From the NCBI GenBank assembly GCA_023627715.1, contig JAMAHW010000035.1:295554-359553 (forward strand): a stretch of 64,000 nucleotides of DNA, in the 5' to 3' direction. This DNA comes from Periconia sp. R9002 (lineage: Eukaryota > Ascomycota > Dothideomycetes > Pleosporales > Periconiaceae). Numbering within the stretch: the stretch's first letter is position 1; every line of letters starts with the position of its first letter. The notes under the pieces were generated by a model. The model was not told the origin of the DNA, searched no databases, and saw only the letters and a program-made list of their open reading frames with translations. Below are positions 47,970 through 50,203 of this stretch, piece after piece. The translations under genes and the position numbers were made by a program.

Positions 47970-50203
47970 ATGGCTATCTTTGGGTCTTCGTTGGTCGTAG
48001 CTCTTGGAGCTTTGAGTGGGGTTGCGCGAGCTCAATTCCCTCCTCAGCCGACTGGCGTTACGGTGCTGGAATCCAAGCTCACGGAGGGAGTCAGGATTTC
48101 GTACAAAGAGGTGAGTTGCAGATTCGTGTCTCACAACTACAATTGACTGTACACTTGAGCGGTTGCTGACACACTCCAGAACGAAGTCTGCGAAACCACC
48201 CCGGGTGTACGATCTTACACGGGATACGTACATTTGCCTGCCGGAGCGCTCACTGATCTAGGTGTGAGGAATCAAACTTACGAAATCAACACTTTCTTTT
48301 GGTTCTTCGAATCTAGAAAAGACCCTCACAATGCTCCGTTGTCGATTTGGATGAATGGAGGGCCCGGAAGCAGCTCAATGCTAGGTTTATTGCGTGAGAA
48401 CGGTCCGTGCTATGTCAATGCCGACTCCAACTCGACATACCTGAGCGAATGGGCCTGGAACAATGAGGTCAACATGCTCTATCTCGAGCAGCCGGTCCAG
48501 GTCGGTTACAGCTACGACACTCTTACCAACGTGACGGTTTCCACCAGTGAAGGGGATGTGGAAATTGCAGACTTTTCCAATGGGGTATGTTCTTCCAGGT
48601 ACAAAGTAGTATCAAGACACCACGTGGCGTGGCGTATTGAGACATTCATCACTCATTGCATCATCCCCGGTTGAGTTAAGCTGACTTCGTACCCGCGAAT
48701 TTTAGGTTCCAGAACAGAACAACACGTTCTACGTTGGCACATACCCCAGCCAGAACCCGAACAAGACAACCCAAGGCAGTGAGAACAGCGCGCGAGCCAT
48801 GTGGCACTTTGCTCAGACCTGGTTCCAGGAGTTCCCAGGTTACAAGCCCAACGACAACCGGATCTCTATCGCAACTGAGAGCTACGGAGGACGCTATGGA
48901 CCAGCCTTCGCCGCCTATTTTCAGGAACAGAATGAGCGTATTCTGAACGGAACGTGGAGCAAACAAGGCCAAACTCACCTCCTGCACTTGGATACCCTGT
49001 TTCTCATCAACGCCTGCGTCGACCGTCTTGTCCAGTGGCCTGGGTATCCCAAAATGGCATACAACAACACGTATGGAATCAAGGCCTACAACGAATCGCG
49101 ATACGAACAAGTCATCGACGCGCTTTACAACAGCACTGGCTGCCTTGCGCAGATTGAGAATTGCCGCAACCTGAGTCTGCTGTACGATCCTACCAACCAG
49201 GGCTTTAATAGCTCAGTGAACCGGGTTTGCCAGCGGGCAGAGACTTTCTGCTCGGCCCAGATTCGGGATCCTTACTTTGATTCCGATGTCAACTACTACG
49301 ATATCTCTGTGCCTGCTGCAGCATCCTTCCCGCCTCCGTGGTACGAGGGTTTCTTGAACCAACCCCACATTCAGCAAGAGATGGGCGTCGCCATCAACTG
49401 GACGCAGTCCAACAGCGCCGTCTCAACCGCATTCCGCGGAATCGGTGATTATCCGAGGCCAGGCTGGAAAGAAGATCTAGCCTACCTGTTAGAAAGCGGG
49501 GTGAAAGTCAGCCTCGTATATGGTGACCGTGATTACGTACGTATCCTCGTCATGCATGTAACGGATGCATAAAAACTAACATTCTCAATAGGCTTGCAAT
49601 TGGTACGGCGGCGAGCTTCTCTCCCAGGCCATTGAATACAGCGGCACCGACGGCTTCCTCAATGCCGGCTACGCCCCCGTTCAGGTCAACAGTACCTACG
49701 TGGGCGGACAAGTCCGACAATACGGTAATCTTTCCTTCACAAGAGTTTTTGAAGCTGGTCATGAAGTCCCCGCCTTCCAGCCCGAGACCGCCTATCAGCT
49801 CTTCATGCGGTCCCTCTTCAATAAGGACCTTGCGACGGGTAACGTCTCGACGCTGGAGAACCCAGAGTACGCCACGTCAGGCCCGAAGGACGTTTCGGGG
49901 ATCAAGAACGAGAAGGTTGTCGATCCAGGAAGCATCTGCTATATTCTCGACCGTGAGCAGTGTACCGAAGACCAGTGGAAGACGGTTGAAGACGGCACAG
50001 CGCTGATCAAGAACTGGATCGTTGTGGATAAGAACTCGAGTCACCTGTTCCCAGATCTGTATCACAATGGGACGAAGCCGAACGGCACGGTCAGTCCCCA
50101 GCCGACGGGAGTGCCTCCGCTGTCGAATGCAGCGAGTGCAGTGCTGGGGAGCTGGAAGTCGAGTGTGGTGGCTGTTATTGTGGGCAGTGCTTTGACACTC
50201 TAA
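47970..50203 (+). CDS. Serine carboxypeptidase (S10 family), probably GPI-anchored
   Basis: Four exons (47970-48110, 48180-48584, 48706-49536, 49592-50203) give 662 residues. A signal peptide ([21 protein letters not shown]) starts the protein. The catalytic pieces are [24 protein letters not shown] (nucleophile Ser), YGDRDYACNW (Asp) and [12 protein letters not shown] (His). The C terminus has a Ser/Pro/Thr stretch, then a hydrophobic tail ([14 protein letters not shown]), typical of a GPI signal, so the enzyme is likely held at the plasma membrane or wall. It would remove C-terminal residues from peptides at acid pH. Many glycosylation sites are present. The second intron (48585-48705) is a well-preserved introner-like element. 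Confidence 0.9.
48585..48705 (+). repeat. Introner-like element (carboxypeptidase intron 2)
   Basis: This 121-nt intron is one of the best ILE copies. It has CCAGGTACAAAGTAGTATC near the donor, the core GACACCACGTGGCGTGG, CACTCATTGCATCATCCC, then GGTTGAGTTAAGCTGACTT with CCCGCGAATTTTAG at the acceptor. The branch site (AAGCTGAC) and the 3' splice site are part of the element itself. The palindromic CCACGTGG core can form the tip of a hairpin. Confidence 0.88.

Follow-up and report, generated by a model that had tools for sequence, protein, structure and literature searches.

The predicted intron at positions 48585-48705 of the DNA analysed here, a stretch of 64,000 nucleotides referred to below as the window, raises two questions: whether it belongs to a family of introner-like elements, and by which route such elements spread. 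The way in which introns arise in bursts in fungi is disputed, and many algal and other introners resemble DNA transposons. Introner-like elements have been described in the Dothideomycetes Fulvia, Dothistroma and Zymoseptoria (Collemare et al. 2015, PMC4457414, accessible part). The original prediction grouped the 48585 intron with four others of the window, placed them in unrelated genes and attributed them to recent gain by intron copying.

Copies in the window and in the genome

The five introns could be aligned from GT to AG, and an HMM trained on 29 copies from other parts of the genome, with the window's own copy excluded, recovered 5/5 of them, which confirms that they are related. The scores were 138 bits for 48585-48705, 96 bits for both 52746-52872 and 56353-56471, and 57.5 and 31 bits for the older copies 6583-6702 and 6294-6384, respectively; the top score in 20 dinucleotide-shuffled windows was 9.3 bits. 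A sixth copy, overlooked by the original prediction, is antisense and intergenic. The 23-base 5′ end of this copy (core 50687-50810) is matched exactly, and its flanking 3-mers, CAT and TAT, differ by one mismatch. The copies present in the window are:

6294..6384, + strand: old A-like copy, internally deleted, predicted intron of a GtaA-type glutaminase gene (HMM, alignment)
6583..6702, + strand: old copy, predicted intron of the same GtaA-type glutaminase gene as 6294 (HMM, Pfam)
48585..48705, + strand: copy of family A within a serine carboxypeptidase S10 gene, predicted to be an intron (GTATGT..TTTTAG; GTT begins the next exon)
50687..50810, - strand: subfamily C copy, antisense, intergenic (57.5 bits with the window left out)
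52746..52872, + strand: subfamily B copy in a polyketide synthase gene, near its 5′ part, and predicted to be an intron (GTGCGT..ATATAG)
56353..56471, + strand: A-like copy, predicted to be an intron, further along the same polyketide synthase region (GTGCGT..TTTTAG; GTT begins the next exon)

The plan of motifs that the five introns were said to share holds in part: the five stretches align, but some motifs are missing or altered in 6294, 52746 and 56353. According to the alignment, the 6294 copy lacks the CACGTGG and CTCATTG blocks through a central deletion, the 52746 copy reads CACCTAG, and the 56353 copy has a shortened block, TACGAG--AG. Pfam searches bore out that the host genes are unrelated, encoding a GtaA-type glutaminase (6294 and 6583), a serine carboxypeptidase S10 (48585) and a polyketide synthase (52746). 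The Peptidase_S10 match (14-382) crosses the 48585 junction (residue 142), the ketoacyl-synt match (53-152) crosses junction 78 of the 52746 copy, and the GtaA_6_Hairpin match (1-89) crosses junction 66 of the 6583 copy. The frame around 56353 is open in phase 0 on both sides; that this copy shares the polyketide synthase with 52746 was read by eye from the flanking ORFs. The 48585 copy is 97% identical to a copy on another contig (C43), inside a gene with a CNNM domain.

In the genome as a whole (assembly of 42.9 Mb, 267 contigs) the repeat, which is ∼120 bases long, has at least 190 full or partial copies, some of them between splice signals in unrelated genes; 192 were collected. When up to 3 mismatches were allowed, a 24-mer of the 3′ half was found at 133 places, a central 26-mer at 93, the B/C 5′ end at 150 and the A 5′ end at 24, with 0 places for each reversed control, and the B 3′ end at 176 places (reversed control, 2). 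A blast search with the 48585 intron listed at least 41 matches, 40 out of 193 candidates being scored. From the places listed 172 loci were retrieved. The window and the first 132 loci gave 152 distinct full or partial copies by the model, and 40 further copies, mostly C and without overlap with the 152, constituted a held-out set. Judged by their ends the 152 copies were 82 B-ended, 49 A-ended and 21 mixed, the latter being left out. The end filter was passed by 67 B and 35 A copies; enough flank was available for 66 B copies, among which 6 were C-like, so that 60 B copies were analysed. The ends of family A were analysed on the 24 of 35 copies with GTA..AG. Six of the 40 held-out copies had no clear 3′ end and were left out, and 19 of the remaining 34 had the flank required for the open-frame test.

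A longer partner element would be expected to carry the ends GTTGAACTCCAGGTACAGAGTCG and CTTTGTACCCACGATATAGG. The consensus ends are GTAYGTTCTTCCAGGTACAAAGTAG...CGCGAATTTTAG for family A and GTTGAACTCCAGGTACAGAGTCGTT...CACGATATAGG for subfamily B; subfamily C is B-like with a different centre, mostly CGCGATATAGG. In a midpoint-rooted tree all A copies fall into one clade (35/35, support 0.977). Identity between the closest pairs reaches 96.6% in A (25 copies) and 96.7% in B (60 copies), and the mean distance of copies from their own consensus is ∼10%.

Three old pairs are arranged head to head with their 5′ ends adjoining or overlapping (L079 1596-1835, L053 1294-1532 and L069 1624-1830), as if one copy had been inserted at the end of another. 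At locus L010 (1501-1739; C7:729556-729794) a B and an A copy stand in tandem, the A donor being located two bases past the B acceptor (CACAG/GC/GTACGT); these would be two introns parted by a 2-nt exon, or be spliced as one. Four loci (L148, L169, L170 and L172) have a good 5′ end and no recognisable 3′ end within 140 bases, and are truncated, rearranged or pieces of something longer.

Insertions in unrelated genes and the flagged site

When the element was removed in silico, the spliced peptide of 33 loci had 38 or more open codons to either side of the junction, and 20 of these peptides were scanned against Pfam. The best Pfam stretch crosses the junction in 11 of the 20, the families being Hydrolase (P-type ATPase), Aldedh, Peptidase_S10, Glyco_hydro_28, ABC_tran, Abhydrolase_1, Polysacc_deac_1, Methyltransf_11, Zn_clus, ketoacyl-synt and GtaA_6_Hairpin; four of the 20 had no family and five matched elsewhere or below the cut-off. 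Similar introns in non-homologous genes, a mark of introners, are present here. Exact splice-site ends, another such mark, are found in family A (24/35 read GTA..AG) and, in B/C, only where a G precedes the repeat described below. A P-type plasma-membrane ATPase with a B copy aligns without gaps across the junction to PDB 1mhs from N. crassa. Compared with this structure, the ATPase frame (L037) has 18 extra in-frame residues away from the junction, which probably represent an ordinary 54-nt intron that lacks a stop. Removal of a C copy (GG/GTATGT..ATAG/GTATT) leaves Gly-Tyr-Cys in a KS motif, which was read by eye.

Presence or absence in relatives was established for the flagged 48585 copy only, which is missing from two homologous, apparently unspliced database ORFs. 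P0172 (93% identical) and P0168 (79%) have an unbroken reading frame at the position of the 48585 intron. Their homology ends directly after GDRDY, the end of the next exon, and the unspliced S10 ORF of the window likewise continues past this point (GDRDY-VR). In the annotated relative P0121, as in the next exon of the window, GDRDY is followed by ACNWYGG. P0172 and P0168 thus appear to be genomic DNA of relatives that lack the element, translated without splicing. A likely ordinary S10 intron is located at 49537-49591 of the window, after GDRDY, where P0172 and P0168 lose homology too. The high identity of the 48585 copy to copies elsewhere suggests that its absence from these ORFs would reflect gain in the window rather than loss in the relatives. 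Paralogues of the S10 and aldehyde dehydrogenase genes are uninterrupted across the insertion sites. Close protein matches fall in the vicinity of Periconia macrospinosa (89% for the monooxygenase of the window and 95% for the S10 protein).

Because Pfam matches extend over junctions in unrelated genes and the flagged intron is missing in two relatives, we conclude from these sequences that the repeats are introner-like elements, for which splicing is predicted. The original prediction of introner-like identity is thereby supported, with many copies throughout the genome, many of them bounded by GT and AG. Its claim of recent gain by intron copying agrees with the flagged site, but copying alone does not describe the spread of B and C, since much of B is present in non-coding-looking stretches and B/C are flanked by 3-bp direct repeats.

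Direct repeats and splice sites at the element ends

The 3-mer before GTTGAAC was compared with the 3-mer after ATATAGG, the expectation being derived from re-paired ends. For B, 29 of the 60 copies had identical 3-mers where 15.0 were expected (z 6.3), the top value among 240 offset pairs for 3-mers (runner-up, 2.6). In the held-out set, which was fetched after the hypothesis had been formulated, 20/34 were identical (14.3 expected, P 0.001), namely 18 TAT, one CAT and one ACT, while the three positions taken singly were weak (P 0.010, 0.10 and 0.096). Two loci outside the 34, L162 and L163, have TAT at each end on visual inspection. Pooling B and C gave 52/100 identical pairs against 28.7 expected and a maximum of 42 in 20,000 shuffles. 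TGT and TAT make up most of the identical pairs, so fixed element ends could account for part of the signal. Among the pooled 100, identical repeats that are neither TGT nor TAT number 8 where 1.1 are expected; the upstream 3-mer is neither in 36 copies, with 8 matching and 28 differing. Eight B copies have rarer matching ends, and in 8/8 cases the end bases differ from those of the copy closest in body sequence, which argues against inherited end variants. The 48/100 pairs that differ count against target duplication by B/C; if flanks decay like the element, ∼10% off consensus, an initially perfect repeat would remain identical in ∼53% of cases (0.9^6 = 0.53).

A 4-bp duplication of the form GTXY was rejected: a G is present at -4 in 56/100 copies and after ATATAG in 90/100. 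The same difference indicates that the duplication comprises three bases and that the last G is the element's own. The layout of B/C is [TRY]-GTTGAAC....ATATAGG-[TRY]. The element carries an acceptor, ATATAG/G, and a preceding G, the repeat and the first GT of the element together read as a donor (GTRYGT). At a G-TRY target, removing GTRYGTTGAAC...ATATAG at the DNA level leaves G-TRY, the original coding sequence; a form predicted to be spliced in this way is GTATGTTGAAC...ATATAG. In the sequences, then, one splice site appears to be carried by the element and the other to be supplied by a duplicated target.

Copies were scored as genic-like when open frames were present on both sides (cut-off 38 codons for B, 28 for C). 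This test is weak: among random window points, 34% have at least 40 in-phase codons open on each side. Of the C copies, 6/19 are also open antisense. GT at -4,-3 was found in 10/12 genic-like B copies versus 16/48 other B copies, and GT at the donor place of C in 10/10 versus 5/9, or 20/22 versus 21/57 for B/C pooled. Many B copies lie outside open frames. A strong bias to genes is part of the description of ascomycete introners in PMC9860276 (accessible part). When 40 in-phase codons are required on each side, B passes in 13/67 cases in sense and 9/67 in antisense, and A in 17/35 and 6/35, respectively, a criterion that is weak for both because of the 34% of random points. When B copies with intact ends were compared, agreement of the last two repeat bases was seen in 3/8 genic-like versus 24/30 other copies. 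Genic copies without matching ends include those in the ATPase gene (GTAA / GCCA) and at 52746 in the window (GTGC / GGAA). Genic copies may have arrived by another route, or have changed after insertion by selection on donor or codons; this mismatch between genic and non-genic copies is the main weakness of the duplication reading for B/C.

The donors of family A are fixed: in the 24 copies with intact ends they read GTAT or GTAC, independently of the bases that come next. Of these copies 21/24 have GT directly after the acceptor, against a GT share of 5.4% among the dinucleotides of the flanks, and 20/24 have G before the donor. The GT after the acceptor reflects either a target preference or a 2-bp duplication; duplication of GGT is less likely, given C or A before the donor in 4/24. 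Two heuristic scans for ordinary introns yielded 4 and at most 5 candidates, with GT after the acceptor in 0/4 and 2/5, too few to be used as a control; the baselines taken instead were the 5.4% of the flanks and the 1 in 16 given in the accessible part of PMC12403724. In the 3-mer test family A showed no repeat at adjoining offsets. Its best value among the 240 offsets (z 4.4, 3 matches) was not at the ends and was taken as chance.

Terminal inverted repeats, a hallmark of DNA-transposon introners, are absent from the ends of B/C; only a 10-bp inverted repeat is present, ∼10 bases inside. This subterminal repeat, GGTACARAGT / ACTTTGTACC, is kept in A, B and C, and would possibly be the binding site of a mobilising protein. 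Across 136 copies 91% of its positions are paired, without covariation and not above shuffled pairing. Unusually stable RNA structure is a feature of fungal introner-like elements. Here 1/8 copies fell below z -2 (range +0.99 to -2.53). RNA structure was rejected as a driver, the folding z-scores being unremarkable and arm pairing not exceeding that of shuffled sequences. Rfam gave no match for five loci. A viral origin was discarded as well: one 37-base pattern was searched for in viral contigs and gave 0 exact matches.

Routes of spread and comparison with known systems

The explanation that we favour, at a probability of about 0.7, is that of one introner family in which B and C are small non-autonomous DNA transposons that build donors from 3-bp duplications, and from which A is derived. 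B and C probably multiplied as mobile DNA. Insertion, mobilised by a putative transposase, would duplicate a 3-bp TRY target at both ends. Where a G precedes the target, this G, the repeat and the element's GT would form a new donor and the element's ATATAG would provide the acceptor, so that splicing would restore the original exon sequence. Family A would have arisen from a B-like insertion whose donor joined the unit, the order from B to A being presumed, and would now multiply as a precise GT..AG block, whether through reverse splicing or in some other way. A switch of lifestyle, in which B/C still jump as DNA inside and outside genes and the derived A multiplies as a GT..AG intron into G/GT, is a tentative extension to which we give slightly less than even odds; if true, it would directly link two rival models of intron gain.

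Spread as RNA, with a spliced intron reinserted by reverse splicing and reverse transcription, is the published view for fungal introners according to the accessible text of PMC9860276. If all subfamilies spread in this way, the matching ends would be fixed element ends or due to chance. The exact GT..AG unit of family A, with its fixed donor and no duplicated 3-mer, fits such a route, as do the genic B copies, which often lack matching ends. It is nevertheless unlikely for the family as a whole: the repeat is located outside the GT..AG unit, is present in non-coding-looking B copies mostly without a GT donor (the 24/30 matches of the last two bases), recurs in the held-out copies and includes the rarer identical 3-mers in excess of expectation.

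A break-repair origin has been proposed for Daphnia introns. Applied to B/C, repair of staggered double-strand breaks, with fill-in of the overhangs and intron RNA or its copy as filler, would account for short direct repeats without terminal inverted repeats, and break repair with intron RNA has been proposed for Hypoxylon stwintrons (PMC12403724, accessible part). Random breaks would be expected to leave repeats of differing length without a consensus; the best signal at a single length of 3 bp, strongly TGT or TAT, makes this origin improbable. The many B copies outside open frames could also suggest an ordinary dispersed repeat whose genic copies are tolerated through cryptic splicing, without any co-option by design. 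We consider this very improbable, in view of the preference of A copies for sense-open flanks and of the GT at the exact place in nearly all genic-like B/C copies. Small DNA transposons that supply introns remain our preferred reading.

Huff et al. in 2016 reportedly described transposon introners with a 5′ splice site from the duplicated target. Co-option of this kind, with Symbiodinium as an example, is also set out in PMC9860276 (accessible part), and B and C would work in a like manner: the 3′ splice site is carried, the donor would come from the duplicated target and mRNA length would be restored. They differ from Symbiodinium-type introners in their ascomycete host, the 3-bp TRY target, the need for an outside G and the lack of terminal inverted repeats, although some known DNA-transposon introner families also lack these. 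MITEs are short, non-autonomous, dispersed elements with direct repeats at their ends. The present elements resemble them in being short, apparently non-autonomous, dispersed and flanked by direct repeats, and differ in having subterminal inverted repeats only, an end structure that points to no named superfamily.

As in the Dothideomycetes elements of PMC4457414 (accessible part), near-identical introns are present in many unrelated genes, several families share a genome and older copies decay. The host belongs to the same fungal class, but to the Pleosporales (Periconia), and, unlike those elements, many of the present copies lie outside open frames and two subfamilies have 3-bp direct repeats. 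In [D1,2] stwintrons an internal intron splits the outer donor between bases 1 and 2. Those of Hypoxylaceae and Xylariaceae (NTIRE-10; PMC12403724) likewise have a near-terminal 10-nt complementary inverted repeat, here GGTACAAAGT / ACTTTGTACC. In the available part of that source they show neither target site duplication nor splice-site co-option, and an exon GU at ∼1 in 16, in contrast to the 21/24 A copies with GT after the acceptor and to the repeats of B/C.

The accessible text of PMC9860276 sets ascomycete introners apart from transposon-like ones by the absence of terminal inverted repeats and target site duplications. B/C depart from this description in the latter respect, as target site duplication appears to be present in statistical terms, and the portions available of the open-access literature yielded no paper claiming such duplications in ascomycete introners. 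If the switch of lifestyle is true, this family would be the first transposon-type introner in ascomycetes found in the open-access literature searched. A fungal family with target duplications turned into splice sites would place ascomycetes under the same mechanism as transposon-like introners, and the presence of family A beside B/C would allow both modes to be studied in one genome.
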